Below are positions 5,262 through 45,641 of a DNA stretch of 51,481 nt, one piece after another. Both the position numbers and the translations under genes were made by a program. Every line of letters begins with the position of its first letter. The stretch's first letter is position 1. The notes beneath the pieces are model-generated. The model ran no database searches. It was not told where the DNA came from and was given only the letters and a program-made list of their open reading frames with translations. Source of the stretch: Candidatus Methanimicrococcus labiotermitis (GTDB lineage Archaea; Halobacteriota; Methanosarcinia; Methanosarcinales; Methanosarcinaceae); the NCBI GenBank assembly GCA_009784005.1, contig WRCE01000010.1:1-51481 (forward strand), given 5' to 3'.

Positions 5262-6050
5262 ATGAAAGGTAAAGGTCTCTTAAGTTTAATTACCTACTCT
5301 GAAAAAAGAAAAGATCTTCTTTTTTTAATCGGCGAAAAGCCGCGTACCCTTTTTGAAATCAAGGAGTTTTTCAATGTCAAAACGCCTGAAATTTATCCGC
5401 GCATCAAGGAACTTTTAGAAGCGGATTTGATTCAAAAAACGAACAATGAATATTATTTAACCCCGACCGGTAAGGTTATTTTGAAATATTACACGCCGCT
5501 TGTGGAAATTTTAAACGTTTTTGAAGAAACCAGCGACTTTTGGACCGACCACGACACCAACGCCATTCCGCATCATCTTCTTGAGCGATTCAATGAGCTT
5601 GAAAACAGTATTTTGTTCCAATCCCCGTCCAAAAACGTTTTTGAACAAAACAAAACCATCGTTGAAAAACTGGATTCCGCCGAAAAAATCTCGGGCGTCA
5701 TTTCAGTTTTTATGCCGTCCACTCTTGAAATATTCCAAAGGCTCGTTTCCAACAAGACCCCGTCCAAAATCATCATGACAATGGACGTTTACGACAAATT
5801 CAGATTGGATTACAAGGAAACGCTTCAGTCATTCATTGAAATGAAAGGCAACGACCTCTACTTAATCGACAACGTCAACCTTTTCATCATCACAACCGAA
5901 GGGTTCCTCTACTTCTCCTTATTCTACAAGAACGGCCTTTACGACGCTCAGAAATACCTGATTGCGACCGACAACCGCTCTTTGAATTGGGGCAACGATT
6001 GTTTCAAATACTTCGTCGAACACTCCAAAAAAGTGGACAAGCTGGAGTAA
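5262..6050 (+). CDS. Winged-helix regulator with FilR1 (DUF1724) domain
   Basis: A 262-residue archaeal transcription factor. The N-terminal winged helix (residues about 15-80, with ITYSEKRKDLLFLIGEKP and YYLTPTGKVILKYY as the wing and following helix) is joined to a FilR1/DUF1724 sensor domain. In Methanosarcina, proteins of this architecture (Msr family) control methyltransferase genes for methanol or methyl-sulfide use; the ligand and target of this one are unknown. The start has GGGTGG a few bases before ATG. It is the intact paralogue of the TAG-interrupted regulator at 40848-41639 and supplies the template for reading that gene. It stands alone between two spacers, followed by a hairpin and a T-rich tract, so it is probably monocistronic. 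Confidence 0.88.
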   Translation: MKGKGLLSLITYSEKRKDLLFLIGEKPRTLFEIKEFFNVKTPEIYPRIKELLEADLIQKTNNEYYLTPTGKVILKYYTPLVEILNVFEETSDFWTDHDTNAIPHHLLERFNELENSILFQSPSKNVFEQNKTIVEKLDSAEKISGVISVFMPSTLEIFQRLVSNKTPSKIIMTMDVYDKFRLDYKETLQSFIEMKGNDLYLIDNVNLFIITTEGFLYFSLFYKNGLYDAQKYLIATDNRSLNWGNDCFKYFVEHSKKVDKLE

Positions 6051-39421: not shown

Positions 39422-40549
39422 TTGCTTAACGTTTTAATTGTCGGAAACGGCCAGTGCGGTAACAGAATTTTGGATGCTATTAATAAACAGGCGATGAACC
39501 GCGGCTCCAATGTTAAAGAAGCCGGCGGCGGTCTGTCTAAATATTTTTCAAAACACCAATACCAGAGTAATGTCCATACCGTTGCCATCAACACGGCAAT
39601 CAATGACCTCAAAGAAATGAGATTCACAAAGGCAAAGGACAGAATTCACATCAAAAACCTTCACGGCGTCGGCGCTAACCGCAACCTCGGCAAAGAAGTT
39701 TTTGAACAGCAGAAAGGAAATATTTTAAGAGCGATTGAAGAAAGAGGCAATTTCGACGTCGCCTTCATCGTTACATCCGCGTCCGGCGGCACGGGTTCCT
39801 CTTTTACGCCGCCGTTGATTGAAGAAATCAAAAAGTCTCACAATTTCCCCGTTTACGCGTTCGTTGTGCTGCCGTTTAGAGAAGAAGGCACGCTTTACCT
39901 TCAAAACGCCGCCTTCATGTTAAAAGAACTTCGTGACGGGCCGTGCGACGGCATTATTTTGGCCGATAACCAATACCTGAAATCCATTGGCGGAAGCGTT
40001 CAGGAAGCTTATGACGGCATCAACGCGATGATCGCGCGCAGGATTTTGTTCTTGCTCGACTCTTTGGACAGCGAAATGATGATGGTAACCGACTTGGGCG
40101 ACTTTAAGACCGTGATGAGCGCCGGCGCGGGTATGGCAACCGTTGGCTATTTCAAAGCCGAAAACGAAATGCCGATTCGAACCGTTATTCAAAACTGCCT
40201 TTCCCCCCGCGGCCTTTTGTTCTCAACAGACGTGTATAAAGAAGGCGGCCGTGCCATGGTAATCTTAAAAGGTGACAAAAAATACCTCAGCATGGAAGAA
40301 ATCACGAATGAGGTTGAAAAATTATCCGGCGCCATCGGCCACGTTTTCAAAGGCATCATCGTTGAAAACGGCAGCCTGCCCGAAGCCTTGTGCGTTTTGA
40401 CATTAAACTCCGCCGAAGAGCTTGAAGGCCTTTACGAAGGCGCGATTCAGGCAATCGGCATGGAAAGAGACAGCAAAGACCGTGTCAAGAAAAAGAGAGA
40501 AATGGAATCCGCTTTCATGACAATTGACGGGATGGACCCGGAATACTAA
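39422..40549 (+). CDS. Tubulin/FtsZ superfamily GTPase
   Basis: A 375-residue protein. MLNVLIVGNGQCGNRILDAI (1-20) has the tubulin-like GQCGN nucleotide-binding start, and TSASGGTGSSFTPPLIEEI (119-137) has the G-box in the tubulin-like GGTGS form rather than the FtsZ GGGTGTG. FPVYAFVVLPFREEGTLYLQN matches the strand and loop after it. It therefore belongs with the CetZ/FtsZ3-like archaeal cytoskeletal proteins rather than the division FtsZ; cell-shape control is a reasonable guess. Start TTG 39422, with GGAGG at 39410-39414. It is followed within 3 nt by the paired-hairpin cassette. Confidence 0.85.
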   Translation: MLNVLIVGNGQCGNRILDAINKQAMNRGSNVKEAGGGLSKYFSKHQYQSNVHTVAINTAINDLKEMRFTKAKDRIHIKNLHGVGANRNLGKEVFEQQKGNILRAIEERGNFDVAFIVTSASGGTGSSFTPPLIEEIKKSHNFPVYAFVVLPFREEGTLYLQNAAFMLKELRDGPCDGIILADNQYLKSIGGSVQEAYDGINAMIARRILFLLDSLDSEMMMVTDLGDFKTVMSAGAGMATVGYFKAENEMPIRTVIQNCLSPRGLLFSTDVYKEGGRAMVILKGDKKYLSMEEITNEVEKLSGAIGHVFKGIIVENGSLPEALCVLTLNSAEELEGLYEGAIQAIGMERDSKDRVKKKREMESAFMTIDGMDPEY

Positions 40550-40847: not shown

Positions 40848-41639
40848 TTATGGCTCTGTGGGAGCAGACTTTTTTTCGTAAAACTTATACAATTCCCTTG
40901 CCCAAACGCGCGTCATATCGTCTACGCTGATGATGATTTTATTATCATAAACGCCGTCTGTGTTGAAGAAGTAGATGTAGGCGAAGACGTCCGTCAGTGT
41001 CATGGACAGCGTTGTTGTCACGCCCTCGTCCGGCAATATCATGTAATTAACGTTTTTGCGTTTGATTAATTCGTTCAGGCGGTCTTTCATTTCTTCGATG
41101 AAGCGTTCGTGGACCTTGAGGGTGACGATGATTGTCATTTCTTTGCCGGCCTCGGCCATTTGGAACTACATCTCCGAATAGATCGGGTGATAAATGGATA
41201 AAAGGCACATGGCGTACTTGGATTTGTTGAACAGGTCGCAGAATTCGCGCGGGACGTCAAACATGTAGTTGCTGAGGTCATAATCAAGGAGCTTGTAATC
41301 GCCGATTTCGCGAATCCGCTCCGTTAATTCCGGCGGGATGACCGATAAATTGCGGTCAAACCAGTACCGCTGGTCTTTCTCAAGAACATTGATCGTTTCA
41401 AAAACGGGATACATGTTTTTGACCAAAACGCGCCCGATGGGCGTTAATTCATACAATCCGCCCGCTGCGGATATGATTCCCCCGTCGCGAAGCGTTTTCA
41501 GCTGCGGCATCAATGAATGAGGGGTCATGTCCATTTCCTCGGTCAATTCGTCGATGCTGTAGTCTTTCTTTCCGAGGAGTAAGAGAATTGCCCGTCTTTT
41601 TTCCGACAAACAGACAAGATCACTAAGCGACAGTGTCAT
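40848..41639 (-). CDS. FilR1 (DUF1724) regulator with in-frame TAG, candidate pyrrolysine protein
   Basis: One reading frame interrupted by TAG at 41168-41166 (codon 158). Before it: a 157-residue N-terminal part with winged helix (CLSEKRRAILLLLGKK, YELTPIGRVLVKNMYP) and the first half of the FilR1 domain ending in SIYHPIYSEM. After it: FQMAEAGKEMTIIVTLKVHE and 85 further residues ending with TAA. Read through, the protein is 263 residues, against 262 for the paralogue at 5262-6050. The 21 residues from IYSEM to TIIVT align without a gap to STLEIFQRL...KIIMT, with TAG opposite Phe. A GC-rich hairpin, GCCG-AGGC-CGGC (41156-41145), begins 10 nt after the TAG. Options: pyrrolysine insertion, natural stop with reinitiation at ATG 41159, or a recent nonsense mutation. 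It lies beside probable amine permeases. Confidence 0.8.
41166..41168 (-). other. In-frame amber codon
   Basis: TAG within the FilR1 regulator frame, flanked by GGAGATG before and TTCCAAATG after. All other genes in this window end in TAA or TGA by my reading. In Methanosarcinaceae TAG is decoded as pyrrolysine in methylamine methyltransferases; whether that happens here is not shown by sequence alone. Confidence 0.85.
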
Positions 41640-41885
41640 CGTATTTTTGTGAATAATACAGCCTCCCTCTAAGATTCATGCCGCGGGCAAAAGACACGAA
41701 ACGATAAACCAGGTGGTAAACCATACGGTTACCGTTTTTACGGCCAATCTTTTGTTTTGTCCCGAAGCAGATTTTTAATAACAGCCATTGACTCCCATTT
41801 CCAAAAACAGCCGGCTTTTCCGGCGGTTCATTTCCTGCCAAAATCAATGACGAATCGTATTAAATAAAGTTTTGATTTTGTTATT

Positions 41886-41900
41886 AGATACGAACTATCT
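41886..41900. promoter_or_regulatory. Inverted repeat beside a TATA-like element
   Basis: AGATA-CGAAC-TATCT directly next to ATATAAATTT. On the minus strand this would drive the amber regulator with a leader of about 230 nt. Confidence 0.35.
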
Positions 41901-41995
41901 ATATAAATTTGAAGCCGTTTTTTTTCAAAAAACGTTATTATTCGCCGTTCGGAATTAAATTGGAATATAAGCTGTGAATAAAAACAAAAGATGAA

Positions 41996-42095
41996 AAACA
42001 ACAGGTGAAAAACAACAGGTGAAAAACAACAGGTGAAAAACAACAGGTGAAAAACAACAGGTGAAAAACAACAGGTGAAAAACAACAGGTGAAAA
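41996..42095. repeat. 14-bp tandem repeat
   Basis: AACAACAGGTGAAA is repeated about seven to eight times almost without change. On the opposite strand it makes a VVFHLLFFTCCFSP frame, which is not a gene. Confidence 0.9.
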
Positions 42096-42852
42096 ACGGC
42101 AAAAACGGAGCATTGTTGTCTTTGGCTGTCGTTTTTTTGAAACAATGACTTTAAAACTTCCGATGCCGGCGGATTTTGTCAATTCTTTATCATTTGTAAA
42201 CCCCTTCAGATTTTTCTAATAATTAATTTATTATCAAAACGCTTCGCATTTGAAAACGGGAGTCGAAAAATGATGAACGGCTATTCTATATACGCTTTTG
42301 ACATTTAAGTTTCGGCGATAATTTTCCGGCGGTTTCGTTACGGCTCTGCATGTCTTTGCCTTTGTATTTGATTCACGGCGGAAAAATAAAGCTTTCAGTT
42401 TCATTTGCAGCTTGAGGGTGACGGGAAAATATGGGGATATTTCCGGCTTTACGGACTTTGATTTTTGTCGCATCCGTCTCGGTTGTATGTAAAAACGATA
42501 TACGGAGGTTTGAAGACAAACAAAATTGAATGGTGAGCGTTGGCTTTAAAAAAATGTTGTTTATGTGCCGGCCAGACCTGCGCCTTTTGACGTTTTTTCA
42601 AGCGAATCTTTGACTCAATTTCCGTTTTATTATTTTTGATTTAAACGGGTTTTGCCGCTGCTTTTGCTGCCGGCGTAAGCCGTTTGGTTATTATCTGATT
42701 GCGGATCGTTTGTTTGCCTTAACAATATTCGTTGACAATATTTGTTGAATATTTGTTGTTTGATGAATATTTGTTGAATATTTGTTGTTTGTTGAATATT
42801 TGTTGAATATTTGTTGAATATTCGTTGTAATGATAAAATAAAGGTGTTATTG

Positions 42853-44271
42853 GTGGATAACGATACAAAACTACAGAGAACGATTGATTGGAAGCAAGGG
42901 CTTGCAATTGCGCTTGGCGTCCCGTTATTGATTTTACCGTCAATCGGGACGTTTGCGATTTACTTATGGGCTTTTGCCATTGTGGCTTGGGGCCTTTCGG
43001 TTTTGCAGGGCTTTCTCCAAAATCTGGCATACGGTGAAATGGCGGCGACATTCGCCGACGCGTCCGGCCTGCCGGGATTTGCGCAGACTGTATTCGGCGC
43101 GGGAACGCAAACCGGAAAATTCATCGGCGGCTTTTCCGCTTGGAGTTATTGGTTTGCGTGGAACCCCGTTCTGGCAATTTTTTCCATATTGATTGGCGAT
43201 TATCTCGCCGGCCTCATTTTCAACGGCGTTGTCGCGCCTGAGATTTCGTCCGTTATTCTTTCATTGGGGGCAGGCCTTATCATCTTTACAGCGCTCATTT
43301 TGATTAATGCCAGAGGCGTGTCAAGCGGCGCGGCGATCGGCTATGTTTTGGCCGTTTTCTCGCTGATTCCGCTTCTGTTAATTACCGTCGCGCCGTTTTT
43401 TACAGGCAATTTCCATATGGAAAACATTACCGGAAGCTGGTTCCCGACTGATTGGAATTGGGGGCTTTCCAATATTCTTATTATTATGGGAATTATGGCA
43501 GTCGCTCAGTGGAGCGCTTGCGCGTGGGAAACGGCCGCGATTTACGGCCCCGAATACAAGAAACCGAAATCAGACGTTCCGAAAGCGTTATTCGTATGCG
43601 GCTTGGTTTGTCTTTTCTCCTTCGTCTTTGTCCAAGCGTCCGTTACAGGAACACTCGGTGTTGAAGGAATTATTGACCAGCGCATCTCTCCGCTTCTTCC
43701 GATGGCGTCCATGGTCTTTGGAGACTGGGGCGCAATCGTTGCGGTTGTTATGTTGATTGCGGCAATGATTTTGATCATTCAGACGGCTTTTAACGGCTCT
43801 GCCCGGTCCATGCACTCCATGTCCGCGGAAGGCAATCTGCCGTCCTATTTGTCCAAAGTGAATTCCAAGGGCACGCCGATGAGGTCAATGATTATTATTG
43901 CAATTTTCAATATCTTACTGATCCTCCTCTTCTCCTTCTTAGAAGCGTCCAACGGCCCCGCAGCTATTTTAGCCGCGTCGGCAATCGGCTACGTTTTCGC
44001 AAACGGCATCAGCTTACTCGCGTACTACAAAGCGTCGGTTGACCCGAAATTCAAGGATTTGGAGCGCCCCTTCAAAGCGCCGAGAGGATGGAAGTATGTC
44101 GCGCTTGTTTTTGCGCTCCTTAACCTCATATTCTATTTGGCCGGAATTGTATACTTGACGGCAACGGACGCCGGATGGGCGCCAACGCTCCTTGGTTTCG
44201 TTGTGCTGGCCGTCTTTATTCCGCTCTGGTGGTGGGCGCAAAAAGAAAGAAAAACAAAAACAGCTGCATAA
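42853..44271 (+). CDS. APC-superfamily amino acid/amine permease
   Basis: A 472-residue membrane transporter with about 12 helices. The first segment LALGVPLLILPSIGTFAIYL-like helix and the second with SVLQGFLQNLAYGEMAATFA place it in the amino acid-polyamine-organocation superfamily. SARSMHSMSAEGNLPSYLSK is the conserved cytoplasmic loop, and FKAPRGWKYVAL precedes the last helices. Start GTG 42853, with AAGGTG at 42841-42846. In methanogens, APC permeases linked to methyltransferase operons are suspected methylamine carriers; amino acid uptake is equally possible from sequence. A long hairpin terminator follows. Confidence 0.85.
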   Translation: MDNDTKLQRTIDWKQGLAIALGVPLLILPSIGTFAIYLWAFAIVAWGLSVLQGFLQNLAYGEMAATFADASGLPGFAQTVFGAGTQTGKFIGGFSAWSYWFAWNPVLAIFSILIGDYLAGLIFNGVVAPEISSVILSLGAGLIIFTALILINARGVSSGAAIGYVLAVFSLIPLLLITVAPFFTGNFHMENITGSWFPTDWNWGLSNILIIMGIMAVAQWSACAWETAAIYGPEYKKPKSDVPKALFVCGLVCLFSFVFVQASVTGTLGVEGIIDQRISPLLPMASMVFGDWGAIVAVVMLIAAMILIIQTAFNGSARSMHSMSAEGNLPSYLSKVNSKGTPMRSMIIIAIFNILLILLFSFLEASNGPAAILAASAIGYVFANGISLLAYYKASVDPKFKDLERPFKAPRGWKYVALVFALLNLIFYLAGIVYLTATDAGWAPTLLGFVVLAVFIPLWWWAQKERKTKTAA

Positions 44272-44576: not shown

Positions 44577-45641
44577 ATGGTTGATAATGTGATCTCTCTA
44601 AATGAAATAAGAGCAAAAGAATTGAGCAGGAAGTTTAAATACGGTTATATGTGGGCACTCTTCTGCGCCGTCTTTTGGGGCATATGGTATTTGCCCGGTA
44701 CAGCGATTTGGGTATTAAATCCCTTTGATGAAATGTTCGCTGCCATTGCGGCGACAAACGGCGATTCACTCTCTTTGGTGATCGTGGCCGTTTTGATTAC
44801 GGCATTAAATGCTTTGACTTGCGTGATTGCGCTTCTTTTGTGGAACGCTGTTCTGGGCAAGCATAAGCTGAAAGAATTGAAGCGCACGATTTTCGACTTT
44901 AGGAAATGTTCGAAATGGTTCTTCCTTGCCGGTATTTGCGGCATGACGGCTGTTTTTGGTTCTTACTTGGCGATGGGATTCATCGGCGCCGCTTTCTCGG
45001 CCGTTGCCGGTCTGTTGTATCCCGTTGTCGGGTCGACCGTCGCGCGGCTGTGGTACGGCGAAAGGGTTTCAAGGCGAGCCGCCGCCGGCATTATTATTAT
45101 TGTTTTTGGAGGTATTTCCATTTACGCGGGCGGCCTTGTGTCTGAATTGGCAACCGGAAGCGTTCAGTGGTTTGGTTATCTCGGCGGTCTGATGGCCGCG
45201 GCTTTCTGGGGCATTGAGGGCGCGATTGCCGGAAAAGGTTTGGATTTGGCTGAGCCCGACTCCGCTTTGACCATCCGCTTCATCGCCGAAGCGGGATATT
45301 GGTGGCTCATTGTCATCCCGGCTCTGACACTCCTCGGTTTCCCGATGATGACCTACGCTCTTTCCATCTTTGAACCGCTTGTCCTTGTCGTTTTGATGTT
45401 CGCCGGCATTACCTTTGGTTTCTGTTACGTCACGTGGTACAAATCGTTCCCGCTGATCGGTGTCGGCCGCGGTCAGGGCATCGGTAACCTTTACGGTCTT
45501 TGCGCCGTTGTTTTCGTTTTCCTGTTCTTTGGCACGTCTCCGGGATGGGCAATTATTATCGGCGGCGTCCTTTGTGTCACCGGCGGTATGCTGATGTTTA
45601 CAGAAAACACAGACGGCATATCCAGTTTAAGGGGTGAATGA
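44577..45641 (+). CDS. DMT-superfamily permease, candidate methylamine transporter
   Basis: A 354-residue membrane protein with about ten helices, two of them on either side of an internal repeat. KYGYMWALFCAVFWGIWYLP begins the first helix, and FLAGICGMTAVFGSYLAMGF and GYLGGLMAAAFWGIEGAIAG give the EamA/DMT pattern. Membrane proteins like this are found beside trimethylamine methyltransferase genes in Methanosarcina (MttP-type), so methylamine uptake is a plausible inference. No ribosome binding site precedes ATG 44577, and a TATA-like run 22-29 nt upstream suggests a leaderless mRNA. The next gene begins just after its stop. Confidence 0.75.
   Translation: MVDNVISLNEIRAKELSRKFKYGYMWALFCAVFWGIWYLPGTAIWVLNPFDEMFAAIAATNGDSLSLVIVAVLITALNALTCVIALLLWNAVLGKHKLKELKRTIFDFRKCSKWFFLAGICGMTAVFGSYLAMGFIGAAFSAVAGLLYPVVGSTVARLWYGERVSRRAAAGIIIIVFGGISIYAGGLVSELATGSVQWFGYLGGLMAAAFWGIEGAIAGKGLDLAEPDSALTIRFIAEAGYWWLIVIPALTLLGFPMMTYALSIFEPLVLVVLMFAGITFGFCYVTWYKSFPLIGVGRGQGIGNLYGLCAVVFVFLFFGTSPGWAIIIGGVLCVTGGMLMFTENTDGISSLRGE

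Follow-up and report, generated by a model that had tools for sequence, protein, structure and literature searches.

A conserved TAG codon, very probably translated as pyrrolysine, in a presumed FilR1/Msr-type regulator of methylamine genes throughout the genus Methanimicrococcus

In the gut methanogen Candidatus Methanimicrococcus labiotermitis, we identified a FilR1/Msr-type transcriptional regulator that very probably contains pyrrolysine (Pyl). The gene occupies positions 40848..41639 on the minus strand of contig WRCE01000010.1 (assembly GCA_009784005.1), the 51,481 nucleotides of which are the window analyzed here (contig C10 of genome G000, 1.69 Mb, 93% complete). Its frame of 263 codons, with a start codon that is not certain, ends in TAA and is interrupted by one in-frame TAG, codon 158 (41166..41168, minus strand), which is present in orthologues from five other species. 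In the most plausible scenario, an ancestral Tyr (or Phe) codon changed to TAG before the divergence of the six species and was kept thereafter, and UAG 158 is translated as pyrrolysine, yielding one full-length regulator. This protein would control methylamine genes, namely, the divergently transcribed permease gene and, in related species, adjacent dimethylamine and trimethylamine methyltransferase genes. The genomes display an open frame on both sides of the TAG, conservation of this codon, purifying selection upstream and downstream of it, a set of pyl genes, a near absence of TAG stops, and the gene neighborhood; from these features, we infer that pyrrolysine is inserted at position 158, what role it has there, and which genes the protein controls.

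The architecture of the predicted protein is that of a FilR1/Msr-type regulator. The domain search delineated a winged-helix DNA-binding region of the helix-turn-helix (HTH) type at residues 13-57 (HTH_5; 41469..41603, minus strand) and a FilR1_middle domain (PF08350) at residues 126-256 (40872..41264, minus strand), with the TAG inside the latter. Both passed the curated cut-offs (24.2 vs 22 bits for HTH_5 and 83.8 vs 27 bits for PF08350), and the FilR1_middle score rose from 59 bits with the C-terminal piece alone to 84 bits with the two halves joined. The Msr proteins of Methanosarcina acetivorans are members of the same FilR1 (PF08350) domain family. A preliminary description of the window had already held that the TAG alone breaks this frame, that reading through it restores a protein nearly equal in length to an intact paralogue, and that no other gene in the window uses TAG as a stop, and all three statements were borne out: the domain search recovered the FilR1 paralogue at 5262..6050 (plus strand; 262 aa), which aligns without a gap around the TAG and has Phe in that column, and, in a greedy non-overlapping set of open reading frames (ORFs) of at least 100 aa in the window, the regulator alone has a frame ending in TAG.

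The central evidence comes from the comparison of six genomes of Methanimicrococcus, namely, that of the window and five relatives (G001-G005; the orthologous contig of G004 is C90, WRDC01000090.1, from Methanimicrococcus sp.). The preliminary description had asked whether the TAG is conserved or replaced by a sense codon in related genomes, and it is conserved: each of the six species encodes an orthologue with exactly one TAG, at the identical codon, within the sequence E-M-TAG-F-(Q/E)-M-A-E-(S/A)-G-K. This constancy stands against a background of considerable divergence, with the relatives sharing 64-80% protein identity with the window copy and with synonymous divergence (dS) ranging from about 0.6 in the closest pair up to saturation, a level that most comparisons reach or approach. 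The ratio of nonsynonymous to synonymous divergence (dN/dS) is mostly between 0.02 and 0.23, upstream and downstream of the TAG alike, which indicates purifying selection on both halves. Given the same codon in six independent assemblies and the selection that persists past it, a sequencing error or a recent nonsense mutation turning the gene into a pseudogene is therefore ruled out; the bare stop codon would be the one argument for such an origin, the probability of which we consider negligible. In the nearest alignable homologues from other genera of the family, the TAG column is occupied by Tyr or Phe. When a strict nucleotide pattern spanning the TAG was searched for in 150 evenly sampled genomes of the order, the genome of the window alone matched; as no other Methanimicrococcus was listed in that set, this match carries little weight. 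No relatives were found in viral contigs.

The machinery for decoding TAG as pyrrolysine is in place. As the preliminary description anticipated, the genome of the window carries a full cluster on contig C11, with pylT (encoding tRNA-Pyl with the CUA anticodon), pylS, pylB, pylC, and pylD, all four proteins of which exceed the curated cut-offs. Of the six genomes of the genus, five have a PylS above the cut-off, and the remaining one is 66% complete. Nearly every genome of the intestinal clade has been reported to possess pyrrolysine synthesis (PMC11362671).

The use of TAG in the genus is also informative. A comparison of 451 kb of G000 with 1.12 Mb of G005 gave 172 reciprocal-best pairs of orthologs whose C-termini align, of which 169 ended in TAA or TGA only, with 72 of these (43%) having switched between the two codons. 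Just three pairs ended in TAG on both sides: MtbB, a known pyrrolysine protein, the regulator, and an ORF beside pylT. True stops thus swap freely and TAG is nearly unused as a stop, and it is therefore improbable that a stop would have stayed TAG in six species. A further comparison of the same two genomes, on a non-overlapping ORF set, recovered in-frame TAGs common to both in MtbB, MttB, the pylT-side ORF, and the regulator, along with TAGs specific to one species in chorismate synthase, ArgD, an M50 protease, a PrmA-like methylase, and a surface protein-like ORF. In chorismate synthase (aroC), the TAG is found in G000 (L052:1249-2364), with Glu at that position in G005, and in ArgD, it is found in G005 (L107:14822-15991), with Arg at that position in G000. 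Judging from these frames, TAG is read broadly as sense in the genus, also outside methylamine metabolism, and the regulator is among the few sites that keep it.

Two other TAG-containing frames deserve mention in their own right. In all six genomes, codon 282 of the 286 in the ORF next to pylT (L038:12154-13014, minus strand, on contig C11 of G000, and L134-L138) is TAG. The ORF has no Pfam or NCBIfam match, and its sequence resembles prenyltransferase/cyclase repeats; its homologues in other genera have Gly at the TAG position followed by a short tail. This TAG is either a second conserved pyrrolysine codon, followed by four residues, or a stop that has been kept in a gene beside pylT. The other, at L042:4323-13505 (minus strand), is a frame of 3060 codons in a methanogen that resembles Rhs/SpvB/TcdB middle-domain proteins and contains one in-frame TAG.

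Several observations weigh against the presence of pyrrolysine in a full-length regulator. UAG may also serve as a stop in Methanosarcina (PMC2933860). An ATG six bases past the TAG (Met161; 41157..41159, minus strand; two codons lie between the TAG and the ATG) is likewise kept in all six genomes and is derived, the nearest homologues having mostly Leu, Ile, or Ala. The 100 nt past the TAG fold no better than shuffled sequences (z = -0.08 in the window and from +0.3 to -1.4 in the other five species). The AlphaFold model, built from three sequences, is poor, with a predicted local distance difference test score (pLDDT) of 52 and a predicted template modeling score (pTM) of 0.37, so that residue 158 cannot be placed relative to a ligand pocket. 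Sequence searches for solved structures homologous to the FilR1 domain gave nothing useful, the matches being limited to the HTH or to designed repeat proteins.

The conserved ATG is the argument for a split gene, in which the TAG would be a true stop and translation would re-start at Met161, so that the HTH and the FilR1 domain would be made as two proteins. Yet the break would then fall within the FilR1 domain, spacing of the Shine-Dalgarno type before the ATG is not consistent, and TAG is a sense codon elsewhere in the genomes of the genus; furthermore, the freely exchanged TAA and TGA stops of the 169 pairs contrast with the TAG retained in all six species. We accordingly regard a split gene as a very unlikely alternative. 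As for the RNA, the preliminary description had drawn attention to a hairpin after the TAG, but this structure shows no excess stability over shuffled sequences, and the z-scores of -1.4 to +0.3 across the six species give no sign of the stable, conserved RNA structure after UAG that defines a pyrrolysine insertion sequence (PYLIS). This null result is in line with a review according to which no cis element is required for the insertion of pyrrolysine (PMC8211752).

A more serious rival is nested within the favored explanation. Pyrrolysine might be made at residue 158 without any special function, a Tyr codon having changed to TAG by drift in a lineage that reads this codon as sense; we assign to such a tolerated pyrrolysine a probability that is substantial, albeit well short of even. 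The species-specific TAGs in aroC, argD, and other genes show the kind of drift that would be involved, the ancestral residue was probably Tyr, the codons of which are one base away from TAG, and neutral in-frame UAGs have been discussed for Methanosarcina (PMC3639795). However, none of the five other comparable in-frame TAGs is shared between G000 and G005, whereas that of the regulator persists in six species with synonymous sites near saturation. If Tyr were the sole acceptable substitute, retention by chance would be possible, at roughly 10% by a rough estimate that was not computed.

The genes around the regulator point to what it might control. Across a divergent intergenic region (41640..42810), in which no strongly conserved operator block was found, lies the gene for an APC-family permease (42811..44271, plus strand), 59% identical to permeases encoded beside mtbB in other Methanosarcinaceae, and this is followed by an EamA/DMT-family transporter gene (44577..45641, plus strand), which adjoins the permease also in G005, G001, and G002. 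These are the two neighbors that had been described as possible amine permeases. On the other side, downstream of the regulator and convergent with it, there is a gene of the Tubulin/FtsZ family (PF00091, with a CetZ-like C-terminus; 39422-40549).

In the genome of the window, the regulator adjoins the permease only, with the mtb and mtt genes located on another contig, but the relatives reveal a closer association. The gene order in G005 is mtbC-mtbB-mttB-mttC-hydantoinase-like gene-regulator (minus strand), then, divergently, permease-EamA, and that in G004 is mttB-mttC-regulator with the divergent permease; G001 and G002 keep the divergent regulator and permease-EamA arrangement, whereas the permease link is absent in G003. 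Of 15 homologue loci examined outside the genus, five have mtbC-mtbB-permease next to the homologue or transcribed divergently from it, and one has mttB next to it. The expected link between the regulator and methyltransferases is thus upheld by the adjacency of mtbB and mttB in G005, of mttB in G004, and by the loci from other genera, and because of these neighborhoods within and outside the genus, we infer, with good support, that the regulatory target is dimethylamine and trimethylamine use. Next to the mtt genes or to the homologue of the regulator, a hydantoinase/oxoprolinase-like gene is found repeatedly (L058:7157-9253, L053:8329-10647, and L118:6283-8214), and msrDE, the methanol-regulator genes of M. 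acetivorans, adjoin hydantoinase-like genes, too (PMC11619418).

Pyrrolysine could contribute to the function of the regulator in different ways. The preliminary description proposed that the TAG is an amber gate, with the full regulator made when charged tRNA-Pyl is available and a 157-residue HTH fragment made otherwise, so that the cell would sense its own methylamine capacity. This proposal, too, presupposes the incorporation of pyrrolysine and is a special case of the favored explanation. The conservation of the TAG in six of six genomes, the tie of the regulator to methyltransferases that themselves need pyrrolysine, and the location of the HTH wholly before the TAG, which could leave DNA binding intact in a short form, are all compatible with a gate. 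However, TAG is read as sense in housekeeping genes, and since the same genome requires Pyl-tRNA for chorismate synthase, this tRNA is probably constitutive and never scarce, which makes the gate less likely; in addition, there is no significant stimulating RNA structure, and the gate itself leaves unexplained the choice of this one residue in the effector domain. The proposal is weakened to the point where we deem it unlikely, and a structural role of pyrrolysine or direct amine sensing by its imine fits at least as well.

For the pyrrolysine-containing regulator, our preferred role for residue 158 is a functional one: the reactive pyrroline imine, situated in the FilR1 domain, presumably the effector-binding part of the protein, could take part in amine sensing. 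A structural or merely tolerated role of Pyl158 is nearly as likely. In MttB, the imine carbon of pyrrolysine is the proposed attack point for the amine substrate (PMC9842639), and with pyrrolysine in the presumed effector domain of a regulator of amine genes, sensing might rely on this chemistry as well. In its most specific form, the idea is that the imine of Pyl158 reversibly binds ammonia or methylamines, which would make the regulator a chemical methylamine sensor that shares both the residue and the chemistry with the enzymes it controls. It is this chemistry and the position of the residue that suggest the sensor, which we advance tentatively, as a rather speculative possibility.

Pyrrolysine is functionally needed in methylamine methyltransferases, whereas elsewhere it is usually viewed as a tolerated accident. 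If the proposed reading is correct, this residue, retained in the FilR1 domain of a protein that regulates the methylamine pathway, would serve gene control, beyond the methylamine enzymes, and the question of what else pyrrolysine is for becomes directly testable. Genome annotations of the genus are likely to present genes of this kind as broken or split in two. Kivenson et al. reportedly described, in Science in 2025, an archaeal 'Pyl code', with genome-wide reading of TAG as pyrrolysine. In the literature searched, which did not extend to subscription papers, including the 'Pyl code' study, we found no genus-wide case of pyrrolysine in a methylamine-pathway regulator.

Among the known systems, the neutral pyrrolysine proteins, such as Thg1 of M. 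acetivorans and those with the species-specific TAGs described here, resemble the regulator in that a sense codon became TAG in an archaeon that decodes Pyl, but their TAGs, unlike that of the regulator, are not conserved between species. MtmB, MtbB, and MttB share with it an in-frame TAG kept across species and the same pyl machinery, and MtbB and MttB are encoded next to it in G005; these, however, are enzymes with a catalytic pyrrolysine, whereas the TAG described here belongs to a transcriptional regulator, within its FilR1 domain. The FilR1/Msr regulators (PF08350; Msr of M. acetivorans) are similar in domain architecture, length, divergent placement by methyltransferase genes, and the hydantoinase-like neighbor (PMC11619418), but the homologues examined have Tyr or Phe at the site, with TAG found in Methanimicrococcus only. 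A transcription regulator of the TetR family whose gene, as annotated in M. acetivorans only, has an in-frame UAG (PMC3639795) has likewise been proposed to hold pyrrolysine; that protein, however, belongs to another family and is confined to one species, whereas the Methanimicrococcus regulator carries its TAG throughout the genus.
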